From positions 1 through 64,000 of the forward strand of contig NZ_JAINZP010000002.1 of assembly GCF_020166435.1 (NCBI RefSeq): a DNA stretch of 64,000 bases, given 5' to 3'. Within the stretch, counting starts at the first letter, position 1, and each line of letters opens with the position of its first letter. The notes below the pieces were generated by a model. The model worked only from the letters and a program-made list of their open reading frames with translations. It was not told where the DNA came from and did no database searches. The DNA is from Pectobacterium versatile. GTDB lineage: Bacteria > Pseudomonadota > Gammaproteobacteria > Enterobacterales > Enterobacteriaceae. Shown here piece after piece: positions 6,601 through 52,374 of this stretch. The position numbers and the translations under genes were made by a program.

Positions 6601-8974
6601 GCGGAGGCTGTGCCGTCTGGCCTTCGTCAATCGTCGGTGAACCAGAGAAAATAATATTTTTATCCTCGATAACATTGGTTGGCACCGCTTCGCCGTCATA
6701 CGTTTTATTGGCGCGGCCAACTTCATTTATAGCTGGAGAGCGTTCAGCGGGAATAAATTCTTGCCCGTGCACCTGCTGCCCAGCATCAAACTGCGGGCCG
6801 GTGCCTGCCTGAGCATCATCACCGACGGGCTGCCGAACGTCTCCCGGCATAGCGATCACAGAAGTTTGACCAGGCGCAGGAAGACGCGGGCGACGTGCAG
6901 TGATAATTCTTTCAGCCTGCTCCAGCGCCTCCAGTTCTTGCGGCGAATAGCCCTGATCGCCCTGCTCAATCTGCTGGCGAATAAGTTGATCAGCGGTAGG
7001 TGAATCAGGTTGTCCCGCAAGCGCGCGCTGCACATCACTGTCTTCAGCAAAGCCCTGAATGCGCGGATCCTCCCTAAGGTAGGCTGGCGTATCACGGAAT
7101 TCATCAATACGGTTTTGTGGCGTGCCAACGACATTTTCGGGATTAAGCGGTGGATTATTTGCGCCTTGAGTGACGGAAATGACAGGTTCACCATCACGCC
7201 ATTCGCCCGTATAGCCAGGAGGCGCTGAATCATCCCCCATTTTCACAACAGGGATAGATGACCCGTTACCGTCTGGGGAAGGTTGTCCAGATGCCTGCCA
7301 TTCGGGCACATCGATCTGCGTAGTCTGCGGTTGGTTGACACCTAACCGCTGAGAAAGCACAGAACGGGCGGCTTCGTATTGAATTTGCTCTTCGTCGCTA
7401 CGTTTCGTTTTTTCGTTTAGCTCACGATAGGCCACCAGTAATTCATCGTCAGGCTGCTGCTGGTATTGCTCTGCAAACTGGCTAACGCTATCTTCCCGAT
7501 CCATTCCCGCTAAACGGTCATTTGCCGCACGCTTGGCATCAGCATTGTTGGATAAGTCCGCATTGGCGTACTCACGCAATACCGCAGCACGATCCATTGC
7601 GGCATAACGCTGCGTGGCTTCTTCGTAAGGAGAAAGTTGTGGCTGAACTGGCGCGGGCGGTTCTGCTGTCGGGCCGGTATCAGCATTTTGATTCGGTTCT
7701 GGTGTCGGGTTATTACTGCGGCCACGCATGCCCCCAACCGCACCAATAGAGCCGCCCAACCCTGCCCCGAGAACAGCATTGTTTGCTCCTACCTCCAACA
7801 CATTCTGCATTGGATCAATATTCTGCCCAGCAGTATCAATAAGTTGCTCGTTTTGGACATAGCGTTGACCAAACCCCTGAGCAAATTCAGTGGCTCCCTC
7901 AAAAAGCGCCCCTTTTGCTGCACCAGATAAAATACCATTTGCGGCGGCTTTCTTGGTCAACAACGAAAGAAGCGTGTGGTCGCCCAGCGTTGATGCTGCA
8001 ATATTCAATGCTAGCATCCGAGGGTCGGACGTTACTGCGCTGGCAGCCTTTTCGGCCACTTGGCTGCGTGCCAATTCAAGCTTTTGACTATCGGATAGGT
8101 TGGCATGGCTTGGGTTGGCATCAATGGCACTGAATGCAGACTGAAACGTAGGGCTTTCCATCAGTTCGTTGAATGACAATCCATTAACCTGCGCACGCAT
8201 ATCAAGGCCGCCCTGCCCTTGCGCGGTTCCGGTCATAGCACCAACGAATGTCGTTTTGCCCGCGACTGCGGCTGCACGATCTGCGGTTTCTTTCGCAAGT
8301 TGTCGGGCAGCTTCTTCAGGCATGGACTTACTGAGCCGATTGAACGTCGCACGTTCTGCCATTTCACGCGCAGCGCCTGCACCCAACCTTGACACACTGC
8401 CAGCCGTTAGTAATTGAGCGATCGTTGGAATAGCATTGATGAACCAGGCATCCTTATCGAAAAGTCCCTCCCCAGCACTGACACCCGTGATATCCCCTGC
8501 CTGATTGTGCTCAAAACTAACAAAATCCAGCGACGCCGCTTTCTTCGCCCCTTCGCTGTAACTATCCTTAATACGTTGGGATGCGGCACCAGCAAGATCA
8601 CCCGCGCCTTCAACAATGAAACTGCCAGCACGCGATAACGGATTTCCGGCATTCTGCCGCATAACGTCCATCATTTGGCTATCAATGCCCAGTGGATTGG
8701 CTGCGGTATCCGCATTTTTTTCATCAAGTATCTGGTTGCCAGCTTTAAATAACTGACCAAAACCAGCAACCATATCTAACGCGCCAGCACCTGCGGCTTT
8801 AACGTAATCCCCCATTGTTGCTTCTGGCTCGACAACGGGTTTATTCCAACTCTCAGCCGAAAAGAACTGACGATCAAAATCGGATGGTTCGCCCGGCTGC
8901 TGAATGTTGAGGGATTGGCGATTGCTATTCGCCACTTGCTGTTCGGGGCGTTGCTGCTGTGGATCGTTGACCAT
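617..8974 (-). CDS. giant virion-associated polyvalent protein (2785 aa)
   Basis: This is the last gene of the late operon and the longest in the window. It looks like a phage polyvalent protein, a multi-domain protein delivered into the cell with the DNA. Visible parts are a Pro/Gln-rich N-terminal third; a HEWFH zinc-metalloprotease motif at residues 1277-1281 in an LPD1-like context; a second metal motif HEVIAHH at 1560-1566; a domain at about 1730-1850 resembling the phage Barnase/EndoU/ColicinE5/RelE-like nucleases (PBECR); an LPD38-like segment at about 2447-2540; and a charged coiled-coil C-terminus. Stx-converting podoviruses carry a gene of very similar size at the same position. The ATG follows a good GGAG ribosome site. 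The domain names come from family knowledge and were not searched. Confidence 0.85.
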   Translation of the reverse strand: MVNDPQQQRPEQQVANSNRQSLNIQQPGEPSDFDRQFFSAESWNKPVVEPEATMGDYVKAAGAGALDMVAGFGQLFKAGNQILDEKNADTAANPLGIDSQMMDVMRQNAGNPLSRAGSFIVEGAGDLAGAASQRIKDSYSEGAKKAASLDFVSFEHNQAGDITGVSAGEGLFDKDAWFINAIPTIAQLLTAGSVSRLGAGAAREMAERATFNRLSKSMPEEAARQLAKETADRAAAVAGKTTFVGAMTGTAQGQGGLDMRAQVNGLSFNELMESPTFQSAFSAIDANPSHANLSDSQKLELARSQVAEKAASAVTSDPRMLALNIAASTLGDHTLLSLLTKKAAANGILSGAAKGALFEGATEFAQGFGQRYVQNEQLIDTAGQNIDPMQNVLEVGANNAVLGAGLGGSIGAVGGMRGRSNNPTPEPNQNADTGPTAEPPAPVQPQLSPYEEATQRYAAMDRAAVLREYANADLSNNADAKRAANDRLAGMDREDSVSQFAEQYQQQPDDELLVAYRELNEKTKRSDEEQIQYEAARSVLSQRLGVNQPQTTQIDVPEWQASGQPSPDGNGSSIPVVKMGDDSAPPGYTGEWRDGEPVISVTQGANNPPLNPENVVGTPQNRIDEFRDTPAYLREDPRIQGFAEDSDVQRALAGQPDSPTADQLIRQQIEQGDQGYSPQELEALEQAERIITARRPRLPAPGQTSVIAMPGDVRQPVGDDAQAGTGPQFDAGQQVHGQEFIPAERSPAINEVGRANKTYDGEAVPTNVIEDKNIIFSGSPTIDEGQTAQPPQFTEGENHSQRQAREFSDAMGVNNQIALPDQRHRVAGVPVDAQTEAYARGESVWELKLFEPGRPYSSERVAKASKWAKTQGATVEEVDGGYAVRLPSPEQQKNKITDFGEELQGAAKHRWGQFSQAMDTDISRDDAKAQPLSKVFPHPEYARMANDGVDNSILASLAVLRAQIPNKPVHAGRVSSWADTALSVKSLASDLISGRQSFESLRSNMRSRPHLSKVADTIELVSQFKPEQMKDAAKYRINAAHYSMYNGQSYPQGKTVYELETTSGKAIRGVYADTLAELLPKAKSYIEQQIGTSLGEGSAKQSKIEIFRRRVDGQVFLGYKGSTQVLPLKAGFKNNAEAREYLQDNRPELEEKLEKLRKISRDEQRNPENQKRTGPERRNGDVSPEQFSSAFGFRGVQFGNYVEGSRRQTDLNDAFDALTDMADVLGVPAQSISLNGELGLAFGARGRGGQNSAKAHYEPDQVAINLTKGKGAGSLAHEWFHALDNYFGQADQRGFENKGRGDSFMTPSKRRNHVLQNGKFVPATHPVRQEVYDAFKGTMQAINNSGMVERSQTLDASRSKPYWSTVVELSARSFERYVLDKAQTKGISNDYLVNIRKADEHADPQSYAYPTNAELDGGIREAFDKLFRTLKTKETDKGTAFYSRQNASKSGGVSVSGADIGGGNIIHDGSFSRDGSKPETGMLRDRVQLAADGFVSHLNGAAKIKVKAVQTQAEAAAMMPNGIPAEFGTVHAIYQPELSRVIVIADNIANARELRAKLRHEVIAHHGLASVIGDVEYDRIMRVLHQTRDSQNKTIQDVWQQVEQSYGQESLETQANEFLAHMAERSELTKLGGVWDRFVTLMTNALRKAGVLNPMDITPAEIRNILRTITGRFQKTAMYANEQPGTREFDNTFSRTDALYSKADDVDPLKPLPQEAEQYRADLDRAMRSLKSGDVSVKLGRTPPVLRALGAPNLDMFINRDTVRKATNGVKHDVPLSVIEQLPELMHDPLAVYRSSTQNDAVVILLEAQDTNGNPVVSAVHMNARKQNMEINKIASVYGTVGGMSKVQGMEDAGLVLYRRAKENPNQPHSAGLQLSGESTNQGLDSASRRYSQGLQLPKEGDPAESSKNILSSADIRKNKTLYSRSGNPAMDAETSRKMGFNVEKGWFDKAKDFYQMAADKDRTELKQWWQETFRKLNTKTFDGLAPLKYAEDAAGKSDAMVSGYTAARMSAGSGSVTAAVLEHGLVRYNKNEGITERIPGTGKADSLMGILDGLGNHRENFLKWIAGHRSERLMAEGKENNFTADEIAYMKSLNRGNEKLFADQKVKYDAFIKSIIDLQQDMGLIDPQSRATWEDAWYLPYYREAENGETHGPWTTRGIANQSSTIRKLKGSDLTIKDPIENLFNYVAKSVDASMKNEAMRRSVTNLADADMLEAIDNPNKMDYQRIGKNVVKVYIDGQENLVQINDPDLYRAFTMIDLERSKSLFMRAARQAKRVLTIGTTSMPDFIIRNFIRDSVHSWAINKDGFKAIRSSWDGLNKAMRTDNTLVDMMFAGATFGGGYSNVYDPGGTASNIRKVLRRKGYKDSQIREFESSIVRNSKEAMDKMGLALEKYRKVSEGAENANRVATYDAALKAGKSKVQAAFESRDLMDFSMQGSSSLVIGLSDMVPFFNARLQGMSKLGRAIKDDPREVLKRGGYIAGLSLALLALNWGDERYEELQDWDKDAYWHAWFGDQHIRIPKPFEIGLMFGTLPERFARALGGEDTPGKFGKVMAHNFFETMAFNPIPQVTRPIIETFVNYDFFKGGPIEGMADKNVIAGARFNDQTSLLMREIGESTNLSPKMLDHIITGYTGTLGSYILGATNIIMRNLGDNGESASLRVDELPVIKAIFRGSDPAKSTQFTEDFYQMMTKVNQINSTINDYRKQGRHDDANELLQDNREKLSQRKAFTATQKQVKQLNDQIELTRIDRILTADQKRERIDRLMAKRNILVQQTVKRVHPYFD

Positions 8975-8995: not shown

Positions 8996-9029
8996 AAAAA
9001 AAAGCCCCACCGAATTAACGGTGAGGCTT
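8996..9029 (-). terminator. intrinsic terminator upstream of the giant gene
   Basis: Read leftward, an 11-bp stem (9002-9012 with 9019-9029, one G-U pair) and a 6-base loop are followed by a U-run. It lies between late element copy 1 (9030-9054) and the ATG of the giant gene, so transcripts entering that gene must read through it. Confidence 0.8.
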
Positions 9030-9054
9030 GGTATCTTTGGAGAATTTAGCGCGT
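9030..9054 (-). promoter_or_regulatory. late control element, copy 1 (weak)
   Basis: This matches the conserved segment of the copies at 15915, 23346 and 31797 with one substitution. Read leftward it is ACGCGC, then TAAATT (-10-like), then a CTCC/CCCC-AAAGATACC stretch running straight into a terminator hairpin. Unlike the other three it has no TTG hexamer 17 bp upstream of the -10, so promoter activity is doubtful here. Confidence 0.4.
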
Positions 9055-9146
9055 TCTCATCAAAAATGACAGGCAGAATTTTTTCTTAGGCTACGATCTT
9101 GTTGCCGCCATTGCGCGGACTACATACATTCAAGGACTCGCTAATA

Positions 9147-9314
9147 ATGAAGAAAGCAATTGCATTAATTTTTGTGATGTTAACTTTAGGTTCATCATTT
9201 CAAGTGATGGCTGGACCTGGCCGTTGTCAGCATGATTCTGATATCGCGGCTGACGGCTCACGCTGCGGTGGGCGATCTGCAGACTCTCGCCCTGGTGGCG
9301 GTGGCTATCGTTGA
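9147..9314 (+). CDS. small secreted cysteine/glycine-rich moron protein
   Basis: The 55-residue product has a clear Sec signal peptide: Met-Lys-Lys, a hydrophobic core, and a likely cleavage after VMA at residue 22. The mature part is about 33 residues with two cysteines and a C-terminal Arg-Pro-Gly-Gly-Gly stretch. This start is chosen because AAGGA lies 10-11 bp upstream and the signal peptide begins exactly here; an upstream in-frame ATG at 9099 would bury the signal sequence. The gene points against the flanking late genes and is not obviously part of the virion, so it is a candidate for expression in the lysogen. Similar short secreted proteins occur in other enterobacterial prophages, with unknown function. 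Confidence 0.7.
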   Translation: MKKAIALIFVMLTLGSSFQVMAGPGRCQHDSDIAADGSRCGGRSADSRPGGGGYR

Positions 9315-12408: not shown

Positions 12409-14241
12409 CTACGAGAACGCACTAGAGTTCTTTCGCGAAACCATGAATAAAATCCCCTCCGCGCTGCAATTTGCATCGCCTCTGGTTCTTACTTGAATAA
12501 GGACGTTTGATGAGCCAGCGGGAATTTCAGCAGAAAAGGATTTAACATAGCTGACTGATTTCTCTCCAGCAGTCACACCTGGCCCAGTAGCACCACCTCC
12601 AACAACACCCGATAGAGTAGATACAACCCGTCCATTAATCAGGAGATCTAGATATCCATTTAAAACCGTAGTTGATTTCGCAGTGAGGGTCATACTAATC
12701 GCCGCAGAGGAAATAACCATTATTTGGTCTTGCCCCCCGTTATACCTGAATGATCGGGTTTGGTTGTGTCCGATGGGTGGCATCTGATAAACCTGCATCA
12801 CATCCCCTTCGATTTTGTTTGCATAAACAGTGCCTTCAAATCGGCCATCTGTTGCGTAGACTGTTCCCCGAAACACACCATCGGTGGCATAAATACTTCC
12901 TCGAAATTCCCCATCAGTTGCATGCACTGTGCCGCGAAAACTTCCGTCTGTCGCAGTGACGCTTCCTGAGAACGAACCTGACGTAGCAACTACCCGCCCC
13001 TCAATATTTGCATTCGTCGCCGTCATATTACCGTTCGGATCAACGGTAAAATTACCACTCTCAATCCGAGCCGTTTTTATATACGGAGAAACTATTTCAA
13101 TCCCCGCCTTCACGCTGTCAGCAATAATAGTTTGCGCGGCCAATATTTTTATCACAGCATCTTTGGCAATTAATTCATCAATAACCACTTTTCCATCTAC
13201 GACCGCAAAGGGGATCGCATAGGTTGTTTTATCGCTGGGATTATTAGGATCGAAGATAAAGAATTGATTGGCGGCCACCGCTACCTGACTAATGGTATTA
13301 CCGTTTGCATCACGACCGGCCACAATGCCGATCCCTGCTTTTACATCTCCAGCTTGTGCTTTCGTGCTCCACATCGCCCGATATGACGCTGAACCATTTT
13401 TATCCATTTCAGTGATGGTTTTTGCATTTGTCTGCACCGCTGCATTATTTTCTCTCGTTGCAGCCTCTACCTTTTCAACACGTTCCGCTGATGATGAGAA
13501 CTGATCGGAGACCGATTGCGATAACTCCCTTACCGCTGACATATTGCTTTGTGATGACGTTTCAACATCGGTTACCCGTTTTGCCATCGCACTGTTTTGA
13601 TTCTTCACCGATTCAGATAGCGTTTTTACATTTGAATCAACCGTGCCAATATTCTTTGTGTTTGTTTCCAGCTTATCCGTAAGATTGGCAATCAGTGGCG
13701 ACGCATTCAACTGTTCCGTAATCACCTCTATGATGGCCGCCGGATCGGGATGCGTTTGTGCGTAGGTGCCTTTTGAATCATTGAACGGTCCCGGCTCACC
13801 CAACGAGTTAACGTGCCGTATCCAGTAGTACCCTTTCCAGCCTGGATCAACGGGGTCACCGTAAACACCCGCCGCAGAACTGGCGATCAGCACCGCATTT
13901 GCCAGGTTGTCTTCAGGAGAACGGTAGATTTCCGTCAGTGAGCGACCGCGATAATTAGGCATATCCCACTCAAGCAACACGTAAGCAAATCCACCTGTGG
14001 CTTTGAAATTAGTTGGCCGAACCGGTTTTTGTATTCCCCCGCCCCCGCCATCTCCTTTGCCACCACCTGGTGATAATGATGTTTTGCCACCCGCTCCCAC
14101 ACGCAGGTTAGCCAGGCCGAGGGTTGCCAAATCACCATACGTCACCGCGCGATTGCGCCCGTCACCACGTTGGCCGGTCAGCGTTTCAACGTTCTCTAAA
14201 ACCGCCGACGGGTCTTTGCCCGCTCTAAACTTTGCCGTCAT
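12409..14241 (-). CDS. host-specificity J-like tail protein (610 aa)
   Basis: The N-terminal half contains a Gly-rich linker (about residues 58-72) and a fibronectin-III-like domain (about 75-165), then helical Ser/Lys/Asn-rich repeats, as in the C-terminal half of lambda J proteins (DUF1983 region). Residues ~415-480 form a stalk of five to six 11-residue repeats of the form G-x-(V/I)-x-ATDG-x-F-(R/E). The last ~130 residues are beta-rich and probably form the receptor-facing tip. J proteins normally belong to siphoviruses; here it is in a podovirus late operon, as in Stx phages. Its ATG overlaps the stop of the upstream 541-residue gene by 4 bp. Confidence 0.7.
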   Translation of the reverse strand: MTAKFRAGKDPSAVLENVETLTGQRGDGRNRAVTYGDLATLGLANLRVGAGGKTSLSPGGGKGDGGGGGIQKPVRPTNFKATGGFAYVLLEWDMPNYRGRSLTEIYRSPEDNLANAVLIASSAAGVYGDPVDPGWKGYYWIRHVNSLGEPGPFNDSKGTYAQTHPDPAAIIEVITEQLNASPLIANLTDKLETNTKNIGTVDSNVKTLSESVKNQNSAMAKRVTDVETSSQSNMSAVRELSQSVSDQFSSSAERVEKVEAATRENNAAVQTNAKTITEMDKNGSASYRAMWSTKAQAGDVKAGIGIVAGRDANGNTISQVAVAANQFFIFDPNNPSDKTTYAIPFAVVDGKVVIDELIAKDAVIKILAAQTIIADSVKAGIEIVSPYIKTARIESGNFTVDPNGNMTATNANIEGRVVATSGSFSGSVTATDGSFRGTVHATDGEFRGSIYATDGVFRGTVYATDGRFEGTVYANKIEGDVMQVYQMPPIGHNQTRSFRYNGGQDQIMVISSAAISMTLTAKSTTVLNGYLDLLINGRVVSTLSGVVGGGATGPGVTAGEKSVSYVKSFSAEIPAGSSNVLIQVRTRGDANCSAEGILFMVSRKNSSAFS

Positions 14242-15863
14242 GCTGTCATTTCCTGCATCGATGTAGCTAACGTAATCCGGTCTACCTGCACGCTGCCGTA
14301 GACTTCAACCTGCCAGCGTTTACCACGAATGGGAGGTAGCTTAACTAACGACTCTCGCAGGCTGCCCGGCGGCAAATGCAACGCTGAGCGGCCATCAACA
14401 TGCAGAATGACGCCGACGTGCGATAACGCATTGCTCATTACTCGCAGGCAGGAAAAGGCCGTATTCGCCGGAGCCAGATATTGCTTCGAGCGCCAGCGCA
14501 TATTCAGGTTGAAAGCGCCATCGTTAAACGTATATAGCTGCCGCCCCTTCACGATATGGAGCGTATCACCCGTCGGATCGTTGTAAGCCGAATCAAACGA
14601 CGTCGTGATGTGGCGAATATCCATGCTGGCATGATCGAAAATAAATCCCGCCACGCCGTTATCTGTGTCATACAGAGCCAGATATTCGTTTTCCACGCGC
14701 CAAGCCCGGATCGTTGTCGGGTTGAAATCTTTCCGCCACTGCTTAGCTTCAATGATATTCGCCGTGGCAATCGTCGCCGCACCATCGGCACTGATAGAAA
14801 CAAGGCCATTCGGCGAGGCATACAACGCGAAACCATCCATCGTTACCATTGATTGACGTGAGACGCAGGACAGCGCGATCAGGGAATGCGTTGACGTGAT
14901 ATTCGACGGTGTGATGCCTGAAAAAATAGAGGGAATACCTTTCGTACCGACGACCAGCGTTGTACCCACTGGCGCGATCGCCACAACATCATCCTGCGTG
15001 GTCTGCTTGTTGCTGTCTTTCCAGGCATAAGGCAAATAGGCTTCACTGAACATCACCTGATTGCCTTTAAACCCAGCAGCAATGCCGTTAGACATCATGC
15101 ACAAACCAATCATGCCATCCGGTGGCATGTAATAGTCGTAAGTCTCCAGTGAAGCGCTAAGCTGAGCATTTGACAGATCGTCGACAAATACACCGACGGC
15201 AATATCCAGCTCGGCCACCAATAAGAAATCCGCTGCCTGACTGCTGGTCGCCGATCGATAAATCCGGCGTTTGGTGATGTTGTTGTTCTGCTGTCCGGGT
15301 GGTTGCAAATTCAGTTCCACCGAACTCCCAGAATACTTTATCGTTAACTCCGCAGAAGCTGGCCCCGGCGGCCCCTCTTCACCATATGCCGTAACGTAGG
15401 TTTCGGTGTAGAAGCGCGTTTCATCATCCGTTGGATCATCTTCTTCTACGTCAGCCGGCGGCGTGATGGTGCCAATGCCGATCGGGTTGGTAGGCACCGG
15501 AACACCAAGACGGAAAAATGCCGAGGGATAATTGCCGTTACCGCCCGTCGCAATCTGTGCAGATGTGACCTTCGGAAATTCATCGTCAGTGTAATAAACG
15601 CGCCCATAATCATCATTAGCGACCGGACTGCGGATTGCGTCAACAATCTTGTTCCAGGCAAACCAGAAGCTATCCCGATAGTGGAAGATGGTTTTGGGCT
15701 TGAAGGTAAAGGTTTTGCCCTGATCTGTATCATCCAGCATAGGGGTGATAACACCATGCCGAAAGTGGCAGCTCTCCGCCACCGTCGCGTTAGATTCAGG
15801 CAAAAGGTGTTCAACAATGCGTGGCATCATTCCGCGCATTGTGGTGATATCAATGGTCGCCAT
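14238..15863 (-). CDS. tail nozzle/hub-like structural protein (541 aa)
   Basis: The protein is beta-rich throughout, with repeated motifs of the type VYDTDNGV and ALYASPNGLVSISADGA that suggest a beta-propeller. An acidic loop (VEEDDPTDDE) and a fibronectin-like insertion lie at about 135-225. Podoviral tail hub/nozzle proteins have this fold and the same place after the head-tail adaptors. It starts just downstream of a terminator and of late element copy 2. No enzymatic motif is visible. The nozzle role is inferred from fold pattern and position. Confidence 0.55.
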   Translation of the reverse strand: MATIDITTMRGMMPRIVEHLLPESNATVAESCHFRHGVITPMLDDTDQGKTFTFKPKTIFHYRDSFWFAWNKIVDAIRSPVANDDYGRVYYTDDEFPKVTSAQIATGGNGNYPSAFFRLGVPVPTNPIGIGTITPPADVEEDDPTDDETRFYTETYVTAYGEEGPPGPASAELTIKYSGSSVELNLQPPGQQNNNITKRRIYRSATSSQAADFLLVAELDIAVGVFVDDLSNAQLSASLETYDYYMPPDGMIGLCMMSNGIAAGFKGNQVMFSEAYLPYAWKDSNKQTTQDDVVAIAPVGTTLVVGTKGIPSIFSGITPSNITSTHSLIALSCVSRQSMVTMDGFALYASPNGLVSISADGAATIATANIIEAKQWRKDFNPTTIRAWRVENEYLALYDTDNGVAGFIFDHASMDIRHITTSFDSAYNDPTGDTLHIVKGRQLYTFNDGAFNLNMRWRSKQYLAPANTAFSCLRVMSNALSHVGVILHVDGRSALHLPPGSLRESLVKLPPIRGKRWQVEVYGSVQVDRITLATSMQEMTA

Positions 15864-15884: not shown

Positions 15885-15914
15885 AAAAAAGCCCCGCTTT
15901 TTAAGGCGAGGCTT
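15885..15914 (-). terminator. intrinsic terminator downstream of late element copy 2
   Basis: Read leftward, a 9-bp stem (15889-15897 with 15906-15914, one G-U pair) with loop CTTAAAAA is followed by a U-run. The loop matches that of copies 3 and 4, although the stem sequence is different. Confidence 0.8.
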
Positions 15915-15956
15915 GGTATCTTTGGGGAATTTAGCGCGTATCTTTCACCTACGCAA
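15915..15956 (-). promoter_or_regulatory. late promoter-like control element, copy 2
   Basis: Read leftward: TTGCGT (15951-15956), a 17-bp spacer ending in ATACGCGC, TAAATT (15928-15933), then CCCCAAAGATACC and at once a terminator. The same arrangement recurs at 23346-23387 and 31797-31838. The last of these lies where a lambdoid pR'-tR' late promoter is expected. Confidence 0.5.
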
Positions 15957-15972: not shown

Positions 15973-16194
15973 ATGCACACCATTGATTATCACGGAACGA
16001 CAATCTGCGTACTTGATGAACATGACATGCTGACAGACTGCCCCATTGGAGCATATGCAGTGATAGAAGATTCGGGGTTTTATGTCGCAGTACACATCGG
16101 CGAAACTGATGCACCAGCGATTCACACAGATCCAGTAGAAACGCTGGAGAGTGCGCTCGATATCATTGCTGAGCAATTATCGTTTTTTGCGTGA
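15973..16194 (+). CDS. small acidic protein, moron between late genes
   Basis: The 73-residue protein is acidic and has no membrane segment or signal peptide. It begins MHTIDYHGTTICVLDEHD and has a beta-rich first half and a helical end (LESALDIIAEQLSFF). AAAAGGA upstream of the ATG is a good ribosome site. The gene runs against the late operon and its stop directly abuts the stop of the tail-fibre gene, so it has been slotted neatly between two structural genes. No family or function is recognised. Confidence 0.65.
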   Translation: MHTIDYHGTTICVLDEHDMLTDCPIGAYAVIEDSGFYVAVHIGETDAPAIHTDPVETLESALDIIAEQLSFFA

Positions 16195-18648
16195 TCAGGT
16201 AGGTGAGACGCTATTGCAGTAAACGTTGCTGTGGTTGACAGCTGGCTTTACAGGCTCGGGTTCAGGCATATTGACGCGAACCTGAATGAATAGCCCTTTT
16301 GGGACGTCGATCGGCGTCTGGTCCGGCCATTCCATATCTGGTGTATGCCCCAGCTCAGGGTCGAACGGAGCTTTGTCGAGCGTCAGACGATTTTGTGCGA
16401 ATTGCATCGCGTCAGAGTGTACGCGATGGAACGTGTAGACAGTCACAGAGCCGTCGTCATCAACTTCGTAGTTGTTCCACGTCAGTTCCTGCCCGTTCCT
16501 GCATCTCGGATTACTCACACCGCCATCGATGCCGTTCCATGCGGCATCGGGGTGCATACCCTGACAGCCAGTGATTTTGTAGACACCCTCGCTCAACCGC
16601 TCAACATCCACGCCTTCAGCCTCATATGTAGCAGTGAATGAGCCGTCAGCATAAATATTGATGACTGGGCTGGCTGTTTTCCAAAAACCGCTGGAATCTG
16701 CAACTGCGTTACGACCTTGAACTAAAAAACGCTGGTTTCCGTGAAACACCTCTCCGGTGGTCGGAGTTATGCGTATGTCACCTGTATTCATTAGCTGAAT
16801 ACTAGAGCCCGTAGCATCGTTGTTTAGTTGTATAGTGTTGACATTAGTTGAGCCTCGACCGACCCAACCTTTTCTAGTTACCCCGTCTGAGTCGTAGAAT
16901 GGAATAAAAACAGGGTCGCCTAGGTTCGGCGCTAAAATTCGTAACGGAGTTTGATTCGATTTAAATATTTGCATCGCTGAAAATGTCTGCGCAACGCCTA
17001 GCTGCGCTGGATTTGCTAAATTTCCAGCATCCCAAATTGTATAATCCGAACCGCTCCGTCTCACAACTGCTACGCCGCCTAATGCCGTCGATAGTCGTAT
17101 TGAGCCGTTATCTAACAAAACAAGTCCGCTTGCGACTGCGGTATTAATTAATTGCACTGTTGTACTATTTGCAGCTGTCCGTCCCAACTCAAATATATTA
17201 ACACCTGTTGGAGTTTGACCATTTAGTACCAAAACTCCGTTAGCAACTAATTGACGAAACGCGACCGCAGAATTTTGAAAAACTTTAAGGCCAGTAATAA
17301 CTTGTGACGTGTCTAGCGTCATGGGGTTTGGTAAATTTGCACTTGTCCAAATTTCATTCCATGCAGACCACGCCCCTGCACTATCCAATTTATACCGAAT
17401 AAATATTCTGTTACTGGCGTGAGTTGTATACCGCTGAACAGTACCTACAATGTTGGCTCCGGTGTACTGAATCTCAAGGCTCCCCGCGCTTAAAATTGGA
17501 TAGTTTCGCGCCAATGTAGCCGTTGCTGTTACGCTCTGATACCAATTACCTCTATAGTCAGAGCCGAATAACGTATCTAAATCAGTAGTACCAAGCGACC
17601 CTCTGTCTGCGTACATCCCCGCCAGAGTTATGTTTTGATTTGTCCACAGATCATAAACAACAGGCAGTGGCCCACCCTCTGCGCCAGCTAATATCCGAAC
17701 ACCCTTTCTTTGCTCCACATTGCTATTAGCAGGGTGATGACCGACACTAATTGCGCCCCATGTGTCGGCTGATTTAAATAAAAATACAGGACCGTATGTT
17801 TTCAGTAGCGTTGATTCCGCACTTGCCGGAAATGTACTCGGTCTAAATATCTGACTACCGTTTGCCGCAGAATTCATGAACGCCACTTGCGCGGCTTCAT
17901 TATTAAATGTCCGTTGCCCGCCCTTGCCGCCCAGTCCAAACGCCCCCTCGCCATTTGCGGACAATTTCAATATTCTATTTGGTGTAGCGTCAGTAGATGA
18001 TGTCTGAACCTCTAAACCGATATTTGCACGAAATGCTTCAGCACTAACAATATCAGAACCATTCGCGGACTTTTTCATTGTATCTGACAGCGTCGCCTGA
18101 GCATTCCCCGCCGCTGTCTCCGCCGCATTTTTAGCTGCCGTAGCAGTACTGGCTGAAGCGGTCGCTGATGTTCTAGCTTGCTGTGCCTGCGTTACTGCCG
18201 CACTGAGGTTTTGGGCATACTGTGCTGCCTCATTTTTGGCAGCGGTAGCATCGTGCGAGGCGGCGGCGGCGCTGTTATTCAGCGTTTGTATCGCCGCCAG
18301 CTTCGCGGCAACGTCCGTCTGAATCTCACGGAAATAGACAATGATTGCTGGCGTAACGGTTTGTTCCATCGCAGCCAGTTTTAATAACGCATTGATCGTC
18401 GTCGGCGTCGATTTCTCATTAATAGAAACGGAACCATAGACCGAATTGTAGCCATCACTCTGGATTGAAATAGCGTATTCGCAGATCTCCAACGGAATAG
18501 CGTAGTTGCCATCCTGATCGGTCATAACAGATGCAGAAAAACCATTCAATACCGAAGGCCCGTTGGTCAGCGCGCTAAAGGTGACTTCAGCACCAGAAAC
18601 AGGAACGCCGGCCGGATTCATTAATACGCCACTGATTAATACACTCAC
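16195..18648 (-). CDS. side tail fibre (817 aa)
   Basis: The N-terminal ~100 residues match the prophage tail-fibre N-terminal family (lambda Stf type): MSVLISGVLMNPAGVPVSGA, then a carboxypeptidase-regulatory-like beta-sandwich. Residues ~105-195 form an Ala/Thr-rich coiled coil. The middle carries two pyocin-knob-like segments ending in IWTSANLPNP and IWDAGNLANP. The C-terminal ~150 residues (ADSSGFWKTASP onward) resemble a tip domain shared among enterobacterial tail fibres. This suggests a fibre that attaches through its N-terminus and binds a surface receptor through its tip. No fibre-assembly chaperone gene follows. Confidence 0.85.
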   Translation of the reverse strand: MSVLISGVLMNPAGVPVSGAEVTFSALTNGPSVLNGFSASVMTDQDGNYAIPLEICEYAISIQSDGYNSVYGSVSINEKSTPTTINALLKLAAMEQTVTPAIIVYFREIQTDVAAKLAAIQTLNNSAAAASHDATAAKNEAAQYAQNLSAAVTQAQQARTSATASASTATAAKNAAETAAGNAQATLSDTMKKSANGSDIVSAEAFRANIGLEVQTSSTDATPNRILKLSANGEGAFGLGGKGGQRTFNNEAAQVAFMNSAANGSQIFRPSTFPASAESTLLKTYGPVFLFKSADTWGAISVGHHPANSNVEQRKGVRILAGAEGGPLPVVYDLWTNQNITLAGMYADRGSLGTTDLDTLFGSDYRGNWYQSVTATATLARNYPILSAGSLEIQYTGANIVGTVQRYTTHASNRIFIRYKLDSAGAWSAWNEIWTSANLPNPMTLDTSQVITGLKVFQNSAVAFRQLVANGVLVLNGQTPTGVNIFELGRTAANSTTVQLINTAVASGLVLLDNGSIRLSTALGGVAVVRRSGSDYTIWDAGNLANPAQLGVAQTFSAMQIFKSNQTPLRILAPNLGDPVFIPFYDSDGVTRKGWVGRGSTNVNTIQLNNDATGSSIQLMNTGDIRITPTTGEVFHGNQRFLVQGRNAVADSSGFWKTASPVINIYADGSFTATYEAEGVDVERLSEGVYKITGCQGMHPDAAWNGIDGGVSNPRCRNGQELTWNNYEVDDDGSVTVYTFHRVHSDAMQFAQNRLTLDKAPFDPELGHTPDMEWPDQTPIDVPKGLFIQVRVNMPEPEPVKPAVNHSNVYCNSVSPT

Positions 18649-19307
18649 GCTTGCGAACTCCCGTTATATTGCGCCTGCTTTTTCTGCCCGGCGGCGGTAT
18701 CAGTTTGTGATTTGACGCCCAGCAGATCGACAAAGGTTTGATAGTGCTGGGATGACAGCATCGCGTTATTGCCGTTTTCTGCGTCTTTGCCATAGGCGCG
18801 AAAAAGGATGAACTCAAGAACAGGGTTAAAGTACAGCTCATCAAGAGGGAATAACCGAGCGCTCTGCGGAGATAGGTCGGTAATACTGGCAGGAGAAGGT
18901 AAACGCGCTACGTTAATTTCCAATTGCGCACCAGCCAGTGCGCCAGGAAATACAAAGAAGGTTTTTGGCGTCTGTTCGTCGTAGCAATAGCGCTCAATCG
19001 GACCCGCTATGCTGTGCCAATCGGGATACTGATAATCGAGCGCATCACGCGGAAACGGTTGAATCGCACGCCCTCCGACTACTCGCGTAATTTCCAGTAA
19101 ACGTATCGCGCCCTCGGGCAAATGTTGTCGCGTACCCAGCACGCAATCGAATGTCTCAATCGATGCCCCAGCATCTGGCCTGATGATGATTACGGCGTTA
19201 ATCGCATCATTGTAATAATCCAGCAGCTCGGATTTAGGCCAGCGCAGCCACAGCGAATCCAGCAGTTGCGAGTTCGCTCTGCCGATCATGTCGTTAATCG
19301 TTGTCAT
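18645..19307 (-). CDS. head-tail adaptor protein (DUF6682-like, 220 aa)
   Basis: The N-terminus (MTTINDMIGRANSQLLD, then RWPKSELLDYYNDAINAV) has the pattern of DUF6682-type podoviral adaptor proteins, which occupy the ring between portal and tail. The rest is mixed alpha/beta without catalytic motifs. Its ATG overlaps the end of the 193-residue gene by one base and its stop overlaps the fibre start by 4 bp, consistent with coupled translation. The family name is from memory of the motif. Confidence 0.6.
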   Translation of the reverse strand: MTTINDMIGRANSQLLDSLWLRWPKSELLDYYNDAINAVIIIRPDAGASIETFDCVLGTRQHLPEGAIRLLEITRVVGGRAIQPFPRDALDYQYPDWHSIAGPIERYCYDEQTPKTFFVFPGALAGAQLEINVARLPSPASITDLSPQSARLFPLDELYFNPVLEFILFRAYGKDAENGNNAMLSSQHYQTFVDLLGVKSQTDTAAGQKKQAQYNGSSQA

Positions 19308-22114: not shown

Positions 22115-23164
22115 TCAGATGGCTTGTTCTAACAGCGCTTCAATCTGCGCATCGGTCATGCCAGCAAACATCGCCTGCAATTGATCGGGATCGGCATTAG
22201 CCGCCTGCTCCAGTGGTGATGCAGTATGTTGCGTCGTTGAGCCGACATCTGATGGTGACGCAGGCAGTTGTGACGAGGCATTTGCTTTCGCCAGCAGATC
22301 TGCTGCTTTTTGCTGAAGCTCTTCAGTTGTCGGTTGCTGTTGCGCGGCTTGCATGGGCTGTTGAGGTGCACTCTCCACAGACTCACCATAAGCGGCGCGG
22401 GTTCGCTTCACGACTTCACCGAATCGTTCATTTAACGGTTTATCTTTCCACACGGGATCAAGTTTGAGTGTTTCATCGATATGCACCGCCAACGTAAAGC
22501 GGTCTGGATCGCTACCTTGCCAGTTTTTCAGATCTGGCGTGGCATCCAGTGCCGCCATCGCAGGGTTGTCATTAACAGGTTGAGAAACTACAGGTACTGG
22601 CTGCGCAGATTGCAGGTATTCCACTTTCTGTGTCAGTGCATCAAGCACATTCGCCACTTCAGGGAAACTCTCACGCACGGTAGCGATCTGCTCTGGCGTA
22701 ATCTTAGCTTTCTCCGGCAACTGCGCAGGCTGTAAACCTGCATCGTTAATCTGGCGCGTAAAGACTTCCAGTTGACGCTGAGCTTCAACTAATTCTGTAG
22801 AGGTTCGCTGATTCGCTTCAGACAAGCGGCGCTTTTCGGCACGTTCCGCTTCCAGCACATCATAAGGAATAGTGTGTTTACCATCCCGGCTGAGAATGCT
22901 TTTCACGGTGCTATTGCCGCCATCAGCATCAGTTGACTGTTGGGTCGTGGTCGTCTGTGGTTGTGCAGCTACGCCCGGCGTCAGCGTAGTGGTATCGCCC
23001 TTATTTTCCTGCTGCCCATTCAGATTATCGGCGGTAGCTTGTCCGGTATGGGTTATCGCCCCCGCCGCCTCATCAGAAATATCCACATCGCCCAAACCAT
23101 TCAACAATGCTTCCAGCTCTTCAGCTGTTTCTTCGCCTGTTAAATTATCAATATCAACACTCAC
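22115..23164 (-). CDS. scaffold-like head assembly protein (349 aa)
   Basis: The protein is acidic at both ends, very rich in Gln, Ala, Glu and Asp, and almost wholly predicted helical. There is a coiled-coil region at about 85-170 (a YDVLEAERAEKRRLSEANQR-type heptad pattern) and a Gln-rich C-terminal third ending in MTDAQIEALLEQAI. Scaffold proteins between portal and capsid genes have these properties. It starts about 100 bp downstream of two terminators and late element copy 3, so it heads a potential sub-operon. No protease motif is visible. Confidence 0.65.
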   Translation of the reverse strand: MSVDIDNLTGEETAEELEALLNGLGDVDISDEAAGAITHTGQATADNLNGQQENKGDTTTLTPGVAAQPQTTTTQQSTDADGGNSTVKSILSRDGKHTIPYDVLEAERAEKRRLSEANQRTSTELVEAQRQLEVFTRQINDAGLQPAQLPEKAKITPEQIATVRESFPEVANVLDALTQKVEYLQSAQPVPVVSQPVNDNPAMAALDATPDLKNWQGSDPDRFTLAVHIDETLKLDPVWKDKPLNERFGEVVKRTRAAYGESVESAPQQPMQAAQQQPTTEELQQKAADLLAKANASSQLPASPSDVGSTTQHTASPLEQAANADPDQLQAMFAGMTDAQIEALLEQAI

Positions 23165-23311: not shown

Positions 23312-23348
23312 AAAAAAACCGGAGCAGCTTTTTAAGGCATACTCCGGT
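23312..23348 (-). terminator. intrinsic terminator of late element copy 3
   Basis: Read leftward, ACCGGAG and CTCCGGT form a 7-bp stem around a 17-base loop containing CTTAAAAAGC, followed by a U-run. The 60 bases 23313-23372 match 31764-31823 with one difference. Confidence 0.8.
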
Positions 23349-23387
23349 ATCTTTGGGGAATGTAGCGCGTATCTGAATGAGGAGCAA
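23346..23387 (-). promoter_or_regulatory. late promoter-like control element, copy 3
   Basis: Read leftward: TTGCTC (23382-23387), a 17-bp spacer ending in ATACGCGC, TACATT (23359-23364), CCCCAAAGATACC, then a terminator. On the other strand it overlaps the ribosome site of the rightward gene that starts at 23393. Confidence 0.5.
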
Positions 23388-23392: not shown

Positions 23393-23722
23393 ATGAAACG
23401 ATTTAACTTTCTTACCATTCCAATATTATTTATCACTGCTGTAACCAAACCCAGAAAGTGGATATTAATTACAGGATTTGCATTCAGTTCATGGGCACTA
23501 ACCTCTATAGGAGGGGTAACATCCGATATCATTGCGCTTATTCAGGATTATGGCCTACAAAACATGACGCTTGCAGAGTGGGCTATCACGCTCTACATCT
23601 TTTTGGTTTTATCAGCGCTGACGTATAGCTATAAAACCATGCTCTGCAAGACAGTGTACTATTGCCGCCATCGATTTGGCGTTTATCCGTTTTGGTCAAA
23701 TTTATTTAAAGAACCGATTTAG
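23393..23722 (+). CDS. small membrane protein, moron between portal and scaffold
   Basis: The 109-residue protein has hydrophobic segments at about residues 5-18, 22-50 and 60-82, and a basic, Cys/Tyr-rich C-terminal tail (MLCKTVYYCRHRFG). A good GAGGAG ribosome site precedes the ATG. It runs against the late operon, and its stop overlaps the stop of the portal gene by 4 bp. Orientation and fit suggest an inserted accessory gene, perhaps expressed in the lysogen; no family is recognised. A role in superinfection exclusion would be typical for such a protein but is a guess. Confidence 0.65.
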   Translation: MKRFNFLTIPILFITAVTKPRKWILITGFAFSSWALTSIGGVTSDIIALIQDYGLQNMTLAEWAITLYIFLVLSALTYSYKTMLCKTVYYCRHRFGVYPFWSNLFKEPI

Positions 23723-30784: not shown

Positions 30785-31101
30785 TGGGCACCTCCACCAA
30801 ACCGGGATCGGATAAGCCCCCACAGATCGGCAGCTTCAATTGCCTTGATAACGGCAGCAATCAGCGAACCGCCGAATGCCCCCAGAAGAAAACCAATCCC
30901 GCCAGCTGACGACGGGTTGATATTGAAATAATCGCCGACAATGCCTGTCAGATAGTGGGCGCAGGCGCTACCCGTGAAAACGAAGATCGCAATCCCACGC
31001 GCCGTTCTCAGGTCGCTTTGAAACGGTACAGATATCAGCGCGCCAATCAGTCCAGCGACCGCCCATTGAAATTGCTCCCACAGCCGGGGTAGCCATTCCA
31101 T
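30781..31101 (-). CDS. putative holin (106 aa)
   Basis: The protein has three hydrophobic segments: about residues 12-28, 38-55 and 67-88, the last glycine-rich (GGIGFLLGAFGGSLIAAVI). It has a charged C-terminus (LIRSRFGGGAQ). It overlaps the endolysin stop by one base and the next membrane gene by 4 bp. A cytoplasmic endolysin without its own signal sequence needs a holin, and this is the best candidate. The family cannot be named from sequence alone. Confidence 0.65.
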   Translation of the reverse strand: MEWLPRLWEQFQWAVAGLIGALISVPFQSDLRTARGIAIFVFTGSACAHYLTGIVGDYFNINPSSAGGIGFLLGAFGGSLIAAVIKAIEAADLWGLIRSRFGGGAQ

Positions 31102-31694
31102 TACGCTGCCCCTTGATATTTGGTATACGCATTCTCAAGTTTGGTGTCATAGCGGTTTTTGGCATACGCAGAGCCGTTATAAATCCGGGCGAAGGTTGCC
31201 CAATCACGATTTTTCAGCGCCGACAGCAGTTTGTTATCCGCTTTAATAAAGCGCACGAACGTATCAAGCTGGCCGGCTGCTGTGTATTGAGCGTTAATGA
31301 AGGCCTGTAATGTTGGGTAGCCGCAGGTTTTCCAGTGGTAGCCCATTATCTGGAATGCTCCCCACGATGCAGATTGCAATGCGCAGCCACGATCAATGGC
31401 CGTTGCAGCCCGATCCATGTCTTTATCTTCTTTATCAGTGGACTGATAACTACCAGGCTTACGCCCCACCAGATCAGGGTGTTTTGCTAATTCAGCATTT
31501 GCCCGAGCGCCGCCGAAATGTTTCGTCAACTGCTGGTACATGACATGCGGCTCATACTGCACTTTTACACGGCCATCTGATAGGAAACCACTGCCATTGC
31601 TTTCAACTTCAGTAACCGCTTTAACCGTAGCAACCGGAACCCCCAAACCACTCGCGGCGACTCGGTAATCTAAAAGGGTGAGAATTTTGGACAT
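31101..31694 (-). CDS. endolysin, N-acetylmuramidase family (197 aa)
   Basis: This is a peptidoglycan hydrolase of the N-acetylmuramidase type (DUF3380/PF11860). The diagnostic segment is VKAVTEVESNGSGFL with the likely catalytic Glu at about residue 31, followed by YEPHVMYQQL. The motifs ALQSASWGAFQIMGYHW and FVRFIKADNKLLSALKNRDW complete the domain. There is no signal peptide or wall-binding domain, so release depends on the holin. It is the first gene after the presumed late promoter at 31797-31838 and its two terminators. Confidence 0.88.
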   Translation of the reverse strand: MSKILTLLDYRVAASGLGVPVATVKAVTEVESNGSGFLSDGRVKVQYEPHVMYQQLTKHFGGARANAELAKHPDLVGRKPGSYQSTDKEDKDMDRAATAIDRGCALQSASWGAFQIMGYHWKTCGYPTLQAFINAQYTAAGQLDTFVRFIKADNKLLSALKNRDWATFARIYNGSAYAKNRYDTKLENAYTKYQGAA

Positions 31695-31763: not shown

Positions 31764-31799
31764 AAAAAACCGGAGCAGCTTTTTAAGGCATACTCCGGT
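31764..31799 (-). terminator. tR'-like terminator at late element copy 4
   Basis: Read leftward, ACCGGAG and CTCCGGT form the stem, with a 17-base loop containing CTTAAAAAGC and a U-run. It starts within about 10 bases of the predicted transcription start of the promoter at 31797-31838. Confidence 0.8.
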
Positions 31800-31838
31800 A
31801 TCTTTGGGGAATTTAGCGCGTATAGGCGATTAGGTCAA
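31797..31838 (-). promoter_or_regulatory. presumed late promoter pR' (late element copy 4)
   Basis: Read leftward: -35 TTGACC (31833-31838), a 17-bp spacer ending in ATACGCGC, -10 TAAATT (31810-31815), then CCCCAAAGATACC leading straight into a terminator. The site lies after the Q-like gene and its small partner and before the lysis genes, exactly where lambdoid phages keep pR'-tR'. Three further copies lie in the late region. Confidence 0.6.
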
Positions 31839-32230
31839 TCGGGTTTCTGTAGTAATCCGGCGTCTTTTAATGCCAGAACAACATCCATTTGCCCATTTTG
31901 ATTTTTCGCAGCCTCATCAAAATGTTCCGTCGCTTTTTTCCATAAATCAGATTTAGAATATTCTCTGGTTGGTTCACTTAATAACCTTTCAGCAGCTGCG
32001 GCGGCGTATTTTTTATTTGGACTGTCTGGAGGTAAATAATTTCCTCTCGGAATATCTTTTACATAGCCATCCTGACACAACCCAAGAAATGCAGATTTGG
32101 GACAACCTTTTTTCCTGCTTGGTTTGCTGCTGGTAAAACGAGTTATTTCATGCACCCAACACTCTTGCGGCGATTGCCCATAAATGAAATTACGCACTAC
32201 CGCCACTGCTGTTTCGCCATAAATCCCCAT
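31835..32230 (-). CDS. DUF6979-like protein (131 aa)
   Basis: The product starts MGIYGETAVAVVRNFI and carries the motif SSKPSRKKGCPKSAFLGLCQ, a pattern I associate with DUF6979. The C-terminal part is helical. The ATG at 32230 is chosen for its GGAGG ribosome site and because it follows the stop of the Q-like gene by one base, so the two are probably co-translated. The promoter for the late genes overlaps its 3' end. Function is unknown. The family assignment is from recalled motif similarity. Confidence 0.65.
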   Translation of the reverse strand: MGIYGETAVAVVRNFIYGQSPQECWVHEITRFTSSKPSRKKGCPKSAFLGLCQDGYVKDIPRGNYLPPDSPNKKYAAAAAERLLSEPTREYSKSDLWKKATEHFDEAAKNQNGQMDVVLALKDAGLLQKPD

Positions 32231-32231
32231 G

Positions 32232-33050
32232 TCATGCCTCCATTTCGTCATGAATTTTAGTGCTGAGAGCACTAACTGCCTGAGACTCTTCAACATACAA
32301 CCAGTTCATGCAGCGTTTAATCAGATCCAGATATTGCGGCCATTCACCGCGTGGAATCATAGCCCCTGAGATATCCATTAGCGATTGTCGCAGATGCTCG
32401 AATGTCGCCGTAATTCGCCCGTTACCGCCACACTCATTACACACGGCAATCGCTGGGCGCAGCGTTTTCCCCGTTCCGTTACAGCGTGGGCAAGTATTGC
32501 GCTGCCGCGCCTCTTGCTCCGACCAATCATATAACGCCTGTCGCTCCGCCTTGATACGAACACGCAATTGCTCTATTTCACAACCAATATAAAAATAATC
32601 AGCATCACTCACCTTATCTCTACAGCGTTTTTTCTCTAACCGCTTAATGTCGGCATTGAGTGAGTCGGTATTCTTGCGGGTTTGTGATGATCGGGTGCCA
32701 TATCGACGCAGCAGCCTAGCTATCTGATCCGCCTGAGCAGGTAAGCTGCGCTCTAACACCATATTCACTGCCAGATGGCAGGCAATATCCGAATGCTCAA
32801 GGTGCTGGTACGTGGCATAGCCTTCCCACGCATAGATAGCCCCCATGATACGAAACCTTGCATCACTATCATGTCGGTATTTCGCCATTAGTAGATCGTA
32901 GCCAACGGGGTTTTTGCGCTGCGCGGTGGCAAATGCACCCAGAATTTGCTCTTTGGAGAGAATTGCACGCCCGCGCCCCACATTCAGTGATTCAATGCTC
33001 ATACAGCGCGGATCGTGCATTTTGATAAGTTGTTCTATAGCTATGGTCAT
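32232..33050 (-). CDS. Q-like late antiterminator with DnaJ-type zinc motif (272 aa)
   Basis: Residues 187-207 contain a DnaJ-like zinc-binding pattern: CPRCNGTGK, then CNECGGNGR (Cys 187, 190, 204, 207). The rest is helical and basic. Phage antitermination Q proteins of the large family (TIGR02642 type) have this size, this zinc motif and this place as the last regulatory gene before lysis. It would load onto RNA polymerase at the late promoter and carry it through the terminators at 31764-31799 and 31717-31749. It starts with the shared start cassette in a variant form (GGGCTGACCAAATGACC). Confidence 0.75.
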   Translation of the reverse strand: MTIAIEQLIKMHDPRCMSIESLNVGRGRAILSKEQILGAFATAQRKNPVGYDLLMAKYRHDSDARFRIMGAIYAWEGYATYQHLEHSDIACHLAVNMVLERSLPAQADQIARLLRRYGTRSSQTRKNTDSLNADIKRLEKKRCRDKVSDADYFYIGCEIEQLRVRIKAERQALYDWSEQEARQRNTCPRCNGTGKTLRPAIAVCNECGGNGRITATFEHLRQSLMDISGAMIPRGEWPQYLDLIKRCMNWLYVEESQAVSALSTKIHDEMEA

Positions 33051-33902: not shown

Positions 33903-34362
33903 TGCCCTTCTCCTTTATCGCCTTAATATCATCCACTCGCTTCAGCATAAACTGAAGTTCCTGATTTGCTGCGCGGATCTGCCCATTGATATCACTGAGA
34001 CGGTTTTGAGCGTTCCGCATCCGCCCTTTGCAATTGGCCTCTTCACGCTTCAAGGTTCCCAGCCCTTCGCGGTGTGATTTAATTTCCATTCGCAAAGAGC
34101 GTAGTTCCCATTCCACCTTTGTTTCCTGTTTCGCCAAAGCTAACAGATGATCGAACGGCTCCAGCACAGCACTACACAAACGGCATTTCACCGAGCGTTC
34201 GTGCTCAGAAACCACAACCCGCTCATGGTGGCACGTTCGCCCTTCTGGCTTCGGCGCTTCAACAAAATTCCGCATTTCCTTGATATCAGCGTTATCATCA
34301 AAGCGCTTTGTGAACTGCAAAACGTTGTCGCTATCATCTGGAAAATCTGCATTATCGGTCAT
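33895..34362 (-). CDS. zinc-finger/coiled-coil protein (155 aa)
   Basis: An acidic N-terminus is followed by a small Cys/His cluster (TCHH at 43-46, CRLC at 60-63) that could bind zinc. A long coiled coil follows from about residue 85 to the end (EWELRSLRMEIKSHREG onward). No family is recognised. It starts with a copy of the repeated start cassette (AGGACTGACCAATGACC) and overlaps the DUF1364 gene by 8 bp. Confidence 0.6.
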   Translation of the reverse strand: MTDNADFPDDSDNVLQFTKRFDDNADIKEMRNFVEAPKPEGRTCHHERVVVSEHERSVKCRLCSAVLEPFDHLLALAKQETKVEWELRSLRMEIKSHREGLGTLKREEANCKGRMRNAQNRLSDINGQIRAANQELQFMLKRVDDIKAIKEKGNA

Positions 34363-34372
34363 TGGTCAGTCC

Positions 34373-45018: not shown

Positions 45019-45024
45019 ATGACC
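45006..45024 (+). repeat. repeated translation-start cassette TAAGGACTGACCAATGACC (reference copy)
   Basis: This 19-bp start signal recurs with few or no changes at other early genes. Rightward copies have ATGs at 45414 (variant), 46168, 46388 (variant), 52375 and 56372. Leftward copies have ATGs ending at 34362, 39636, 42056 and 33050 (variant). It combines an AAGGA ribosome site with a fixed spacer GACTGACCA and often the first codon pair ATG-ACC. The copies lie in two operons that read in opposite directions. Confidence 0.85.
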
Positions 45025-46086: not shown

Positions 46087-46167
46087 CCCAGAAAGAGAAA
46101 AGCCCCAGTTTGCACCGGGGCTATCCCGGTCAACAGCGACCAAACCGTTGACCATAAGGACTGACCA

Positions 46168-46191
46168 ATGACCATAGTCATCAGCAGTTGA
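46168..46191 (+). other. seven-codon frame driven by the start cassette
   Basis: A perfect copy of the start cassette is followed by ATG ACC ATA GTC ATC AGC AGT TGA, encoding MTIVISS. This is either a leader peptide for the 48-residue gene that follows or the remains of a lost gene. Confidence 0.45.
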
Positions 46192-52360: not shown

Positions 52361-52374
52361 GTAAGGACTGACCA

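Follow-up and report, generated by a model that had tools for sequence, protein, structure and literature searches.

Four promoter-terminator elements at fixed places in the late region of a Pectobacterium versatile prophage as probable loading gates for a Q-like antiterminator

The 64,000-nt stretch of Pectobacterium versatile DNA analysed here (the window) carries a prophage flanked by direct repeats of 166 nt at 43-208 and 57872-58037, which are 98% identical and represent its probable ends. The late genes point leftward and comprise the Q-like gene, a DUF6979 gene, lysis genes, terminase, portal, scaffold-position gene and major head protein, continuing with the tail fibre, the internal virion protein and a giant gene of 2785 aa. 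They are akin to those of 933W/Stx-type podoviruses, the major head protein at approximately 74%. Table 1 lists the coordinates of the principal features. The 3' end of the Q-like gene runs into the DUF6979 gene, whose own stop codon overlaps the -35 hexamer of the first of the four elements considered below. This gene is recognised in some relatives only; in several relatives no gene intervenes and about 37 nt separate the Q-like gene from the element. The gene following the third element, called nozzle-like in the first-pass annotation, instead matches the internal virion protein family phrog_511, and the SU10-adaptor-like gene is a separate one. Further features of the prophage include a leftward gene (28505-29449) whose protein has Phage_gp49_66 and Tad2-like (Thoeris anti-defence 2) Pfam domains, and a repeat with the core AAGGACTGACCAATGACC, or part of it, at 44995-45026, 46144-46175, 52351-52382 and 56355-56374 on the plus strand and at 34352-34379 on the minus strand. 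This repeat is associated with the start codons of genes on both strands and seems to include the ribosome-binding site.

Table 1. Coordinates of the four elements and of neighbouring genes in the window
Feature	Position	Strand	Details
Q-like antiterminator gene (putative)	32232..33050	-	272 aa; TIGR02642; CxxC zinc motifs
DUF6979 gene	31835..32296	-	between Q-like gene and copy 1; Pfam
Copy 1 (slot 1, pR'-tR')	31764..31838	-	-35 TTGACC 31838-31833; spacer 17; -10 TAAATT 31815-31810; pause-like AAAGAT 31805-31800; hairpin and T-run to 31764; predicted leader about 40 nt
Endolysin gene	31101..31694	-	first gene past copy 1; phrog_1224; holins also among lysis genes
Cargo (moron-like) ORF, slot 2	23393..23722	+	no Pfam family
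Copy 2 (slot 2, before scaffold position)	23312..23387	-	-35 TTGCTC 23387-23382; -10 TACATT 23364-23359; AAAGAT; hairpin
Scaffold-position gene	22115..23164	-	first gene past copy 2; named from place in gene order, no library function
SU10-adaptor-like gene	18645..19307		
Cargo ORF, slot 3	15973..16194	+	no Pfam family (scanned from 15967); start codon by eye
Copy 3 (slot 3, before internal virion protein)	15885..15956	-	-35 TTGCGT 15956-15951; -10 TAAATT 15933-15928; AAAGAT; hairpin
Internal virion protein gene	14238..15863	-	first gene past copy 3; 541 aa; phrog_511
Cargo ORF, slot 4	9147..9314	+	no Pfam family (scanned from 9099); start by eye; N-terminus signal-peptide-like by eye
Copy 4 (slot 4, before giant gene)	8996..9071	-	degenerate -35 TGTCAT 9071-9066; -10 TAAATT 9048-9043; AAAGAT; hairpin
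Giant gene	617..8974	-	2785 aa; first gene past copy 4

At up to three mismatches, the 23-mer core GCGCTAAATTCCCCAAAGATACC has exactly four matches in the window, all on the minus strand (31797-31819, 23346-23368, 15915-15937 and 9030-9052), bearing out the four leftward elements that the first-pass annotation had placed there. No match occurred in 100 dinucleotide shuffles of the window, and a search of the host genome with GCGCTAMATTCYCCAAAGATACC at the same tolerance returned the same four copies and none elsewhere; chance is therefore excluded for the four elements. Copies 1-3 consist of a TTG-type -35 hexamer, a spacer of 17 nt and TA[AC]ATT, while copy 4, as the annotation had described, is without TTG at the -35 place. 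On the leftward strand of positions 1-34000 the arrangement TTG-17-TANNNT is found five times, three of which are copies 1-3. The pause-like AAAGAT lies 3' of the -10 in every copy, and a hairpin followed by a T-run is present in 4/4, with minimum free energies of -14.7 to -19.6 kcal/mol and z scores of -2.9 to -4.8. A rule-based terminator scan listed the promoter of copy 1 and missed its hairpin, which is bulged. The loop core CTTAAAAAGC, described as kept in the first-pass annotation, was found in copies 1-3, the loop of copy 4 being GTTAATTC. No convincing rightward -35/-10 pair that could serve the flanking genes was seen by eye within the element, and blastn of copy 1 with its flanks (111 nt) gave no match in the phage collection.

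The comparison of related prophages proposed in the first-pass annotation shows the element recurring at the same four places: between the Q-like gene and the lysis genes (slot 1), portal and scaffold (slot 2), tail fibre and internal virion protein (slot 3), and a 444-aa gene and the giant gene (slot 4). Named contigs with the element come mostly from Pectobacterium and Brenneria and also from Symbiopectobacterium, in addition to IMG/VR records. Four relatives (G007, G014, G015 and G312) have all four elements, spread over one or two contigs. In clade A, the close relatives, four copies are present in 6/6 whole IMG/VR records, and in clade B, the sister group, in 12/14, with three copies in the other two; one of these twelve, G327, is counted with a fourth copy that is a 2-mismatch match not confirmed by the next gene. 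The clade B element mostly ends in GATGCC. For its slots 3 and 4, 18 of 19 fetched stretches were confirmed by the next gene, the exception being slot 4 of G327, and the distance from core to next gene is 73-78 nt for the internal virion protein and 77 to 818 nt for the giant gene. A family-wide pattern search at 2 mismatches, positive in 46/295 genomes, mixes true and chance matches and was excluded from the evidence. The elements are thus, on comparative grounds, the property of a prophage family and a real conserved system.

Among Stx/933W-like loci (approximately L164-L194) no repeated element was detected by script, a weak negative because the majority extend to slot 2 but probably not to slot 1; L181 alone gave a repeat pair above the script threshold (17/22). 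In L203, a more distant relative whose portal matches at 59%, two like hairpins at 1200-1260 and 3702-3760 are each preceded by the same 22-nt block, GTTATTTTCTCCCAATAATGCA. They are located in the lysis region, away from slots 2-4, and the 2.5 kb that separate them hold a 519-codon ORF; the sister record G341 has one copy of the block. The doubled block may be another type of promoter duplicated around cargo.

The promoter signature was analysed in diverged elements. After elements too near the end of a locus or without a T-run had been set aside, 110 distinct element contexts were reduced to 66 by removal of 44 with upstream flanks at least 70% identical. In 50/66 of these, the TTG begins exactly 23 nt upstream of the -10, and in 65/66 a T is found there. 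The spacer columns -19 to -9 are nearly random (0.03-0.31 bits), and columns -8 to -4 (ATACG) are again conserved (0.7-1.6 bits). The search pattern fixed CGCTA, AT[TA] and AA[AT]GAT with the next two bases, so that conservation of these parts is partly by construction; no constraint was placed on the -35, the spacer or columns -8 to -4. Constant placement of the -35 beside a drifting spacer is the mark of a sigma-70 promoter, as read from the alignment. By slot, in a set of 122 elements, TTG occurs in 9/9, 34/34, 22/24 and 3/21 for slots 1-4, that is, in 65/67 of slots 1-3 with the sigma-70 -35/-10 at 17-nt spacing, and in 32/34 elements without a recognised next gene and hence without an assigned slot; two of these 34 (L055 and L105), from other organisms or poor matches, are probably chance. 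At slot 4, TTG is absent from 18/21 distinct elements and TT is kept in 15/21. The weak -35 of copy 4 is therefore a slot 4 trait across the family, and the promoter at this slot, mostly without TTG, may be weak. TTGACC-type hexamers belong to slot 1, the TTGC type mostly to slot 2 and often to slot 3, and degenerate ones to slot 4. In clades A and B the -10-like AAAGAT or AATGAT occupies a fixed place, this hexamer being part of the search pattern.

The first-pass annotation had suggested selection on an RNA or promoter function. What is selected seems to be chiefly the promoter DNA. Since the hairpin stems are not the same from slot to slot, the feature most conserved is not a common RNA structure. 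A known RNA element type was also considered and rejected, as no Rfam match was obtained in the window and the stems vary.

The protein encoded just before copy 1 matches TIGR02642, an unnamed hypothetical phage family of NCBI, at 280.9 bits against a cut-off of 101.4. This family was matched by 23/23 Q-like members at E up to 0.01; the uncharacterised phrog_17382 was also matched by 23/23, and phrog_127, labelled 'Q-like', by 22/23. The Pfam Q families are PF06530, PF03589 and PF06323 (PMC7171158); searched against the Pfam Q families, including PF03589 and the Q21 family, the protein gave no hit up to E 0.1. A profile of the 23 sequences against the PDB retrieved lambda Q (7ubm) at E 0.0043 in two colinear segments, each weak by itself (0.71 and 30), and the zinc domains of DnaJ (1e-6) and anti-TRAP (2e-4) scored above lambda Q in the same search. 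Alignment with lambda Q by hhalign gave 86.5%, covering the zinc-motif and C-terminal part. The AlphaFold model is of middling quality (mean pLDDT 71, pTM 0.55), and VIA-align of this model was led by unrelated coiled coils, lambda Q not being among the matches listed. Phage records with a match to the protein at E 1e-5 were Pmp11 and phiARM81mr only. The protein is a putative, divergent antiterminator, possibly related to lambda Q; this role rests on gene position, distant matches and co-divergence.

This co-divergence can be observed in the block just 5' of the -10, which is conserved and differs between Q clades and is a candidate Q-binding element. All 30 loci whose Q-like hit has 49-84% identity contain two or more elements of the GCGC-TANATT type, at up to two mismatches. 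In clade C (three loci, Q-like protein 37-39%) the form is TTGC-17-(AAGTGAGC)-TAAATT/TAATTT-AAAGAT/AACGAT at slots 1 and 2, a pattern found in 3/7 records. The two records followed further have a hairpin without promoter at slot 4 and, by eye, neither at slot 3; since the clade C promoter is confined to slots 1 and 2 in these two, four copies are not essential. The Aeromonas phage phiARM81mr (Q-like protein 26%) has its own type, [AG]GCGT-TA[GC]NAT, at four matching places. The first follows the Q-like gene and carries AAAGAT; the second follows the portal gene, one small ORF separating it from the scaffold-position gene; the third precedes the internal virion protein; and the fourth comes past the gene preceding the giant gene, with the annotated giant start 1.9 kb further on. 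The four predicted -35 sites stand at L128 8778, 15133, 24053 and 32779. In Aeromonas sp. ARM81, ciprofloxacin is reported to have increased ARM81mr particles 140-fold (PMC10432266). In the 45-kb stretch of this phage, GCGTTA[GC]NAT occurs exactly four times, on one strand and all at those places, while a closely similar pattern appeared 0.01 times per run in 100 first-order Markov runs. TTG-17-TANNNT is found five times on the same strand, four of them at those places. The blocks of clade C and phiARM81mr differ at matching sites, so the places are kept and the letters change with the Q-like protein, a covariation based on four Q clades, two of which (A and B) have one block in common. In L288 and L289 (Q-like protein 34-35%) no repeated element was seen by eye after the Q-like gene.

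The plan of the elements is that of lambda pR', which reads TTGACT-17-TAAATT-TGACTC-AACGAT in its record. The -10 TAAATT is identical, a -10-like hexamer lies in the initial transcribed region, and one copy stands just past the antiterminator gene. A control search found the lambda pR' block once in lambda versus four times here, and the distance from -10 to pause hexamer is 3-5 nt here versus 6 nt in lambda. Lambda tR' lies about 194 nt downstream, whereas the terminator of the Pectobacterium elements is nearer, at approximately 40 nt. Only slot 1 is positioned straight after the antiterminator gene, slots 2-4 being 8-23 kb away. According to PMC6606751, Q loading needs a -10-like early transcribed sequence and, between -35 and -10, a binding element; AAAGAT and ATACGCGC are the respective candidate counterparts. 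Phage 21 Q and its binding element likewise combine an element between -35 and -10, a -10-like pause sequence and a downstream terminator (same source); its binding element is a direct repeat of TGAGCA, whereas no such repeat is evident by eye here, and the Q-like protein is without a Q21 family hit.

Similar arrangements are described beyond lambdoid phages. AlpA of Pseudomonas aeruginosa is one antiterminator acting at more than one promoter, with an element between -35 and -10 and downstream terminators, but its targets are two separate operons, whereas the copies here stand in series in one late region (PMC7969949). GafZ of the Caulobacter gene transfer agent also antiterminates a phage-like cluster, its putative element likewise lying between -35 and -10 (PMC11150451). 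It differs in acting together with the activator GafY and in its terminator, which consists of a set of long repeats within that cluster. A single late promoter is reported for P22 and almost certainly applies to phage L (PMC8022706), and a single late promoter with terminator is proposed for Pseudomonas phage YA3 (PMC7326022). Screening of open-licence literature by title and start of abstract returned no report of several Q-dependent promoters in one late operon.

Taken together, these observations probably reflect four Q-loading pR'-tR' modules arranged in series in one late operon. Each module would comprise a sigma-70 promoter made up of a -35, a 17-nt spacer and a TAAATT-type -10, with the clade-specific block just 5' of the -10 (ATACGCGC) as putative Q-binding element. 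Among the initially transcribed bases, the -10-like AAAGAT would retain RNA polymerase through a sigma-dependent pause, and the intrinsic terminator would end the leader at about 40 nt. In the lysogen, each element would yield the short leader alone. Upon induction, the Q-like protein would load onto polymerase at all four elements and allow read-through, so that the lysis, head, ejection and giant-protein genes would each receive fresh Q-modified polymerase. Several gates could restore the supply of polymerase after long or cargo-laden stretches, or set the dose for each block. Anatomy, fixed places and conservation are seen in the sequence itself; the transcription starts, the pausing, the Q binding and the read-through are inferred. 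The earlier suggestion that Q-type antitermination is re-loaded at several points thus gains from the fixed slots, the kept -35, the pause-like hexamer with terminator and the clade-specific block, its Q step staying putative.

The inserted genes beside the elements bear on a different explanation, namely that each element is a linker or boundary carried with a moron, or a homology block for cassette exchange, with no transcriptional role. Its appeal is that copies 2-4 of the window adjoin inserted rightward genes, and that in 13 of the 34 loci in which slot 2 was measured the portal stop and the -35 are separated by 331-2896 nt of additional DNA, the insertion point being just 5' of the -35. 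Nevertheless, in the other 21 of the 34 just 3 nt separate the portal stop from the -35 and no gene intervenes; the element is therefore independent of the inserts and probably older, and on this comparison the morons are secondary to the elements. Slot 1 of the window has no rightward gene, and a linker would not hold TTG at exact spacing while the spacer drifts. This explanation, which the first-pass annotation had offered as its alternative, is consequently highly improbable. The statement that three copies sit beside rightward morons holds for copies 2-4 of the window and does not extend to relatives, in which the ORFs inserted at slot 2 are on either strand or absent.

Among the inserts sampled at slot 2 are colicin-like genes, in which Cloacin is combined with Pyocin_S or Cytotoxic domains, and also DUF2971 genes. 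Colicin/pyocin-like genes lie between the portal stop and the element in L133 (9759-12164) and L136 (9755-11344), and in three other genomes (L120, L121 and L122) an apparently similar gene with the same N-terminus is still beside the element, where mere scraps of phage late genes are recognised. On a cursory look, such remnant contexts comprise L114, L118 and L120-L123. The DUF2971 genes of L132 (9673-10500), L147 (9615-10454) and L157 (9632-10471) resemble the PADLOC candidate defence family PDC-S31. In phiARM81mr a reverse transcriptase gene (L128, 22319-23605; retron-type annotation, best PADLOC hit RT) is located before slot 3, slightly upstream of the late element.

Two further explanations accept a transcriptional role of another kind. 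The elements might be intra-operon terminators that block stray transcription, their promoter-like parts being relics of pR' duplication. Hairpins seen by eye without a recognised promoter at slot 4 of clade C and at slots 2 and 4 of PhiR5_2, the latter also scanned for the promoter, are in line with this, as are the intra-operon terminators of unknown role in phage L (PMC8022706). PhiR5_2 is a 933W/Stx-type relative (major head protein 74%, portal 70%) that is alike in its slot hairpins and differs in having no TTG-17-TANNNT in its slots within the stretch fetched. Against this explanation, the -35 is conserved in slots 2 and 3 of clades A and B, and in phiARM81mr it recurs next to different letters, which makes the terminator explanation unlikely. 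The elements might otherwise be ordinary Q-independent promoters giving short terminated RNAs, such as small regulatory RNAs, or leaky late expression, since a promoter and a terminator by themselves predict an RNA of about 40 nt. This is very unlikely in view of the conserved block beyond -35 and -10, which differs between Q clades and is shared by slots 2-4 with the copy beside the Q-like gene, and of stems that differ between slots.

Serial Q loading would change the usual picture of lambdoid late operons, in which Q-modified polymerase proceeds from one late promoter to the end; here there would be four gates. It would suggest a function for the unnamed family TIGR02642, and it would provide natural matched sets of promoter and antiterminator with different blocks for studies of Q specificity and processivity. 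In a broader reading, to which about an even chance is assigned, the late operon consists of independently charged units: the same Q protein would re-load fresh polymerase at four gates, the strength of each -35 would set the dose of its block, and foreign genes (bacteriocins, DUF2971 genes, reverse transcriptase) could be inserted 5' of the -35 harmlessly. Cargo just upstream of a gate would do no harm downstream because every gate restarts transcription, and serial gates, if real, would explain why accessory genes collect at these sites.
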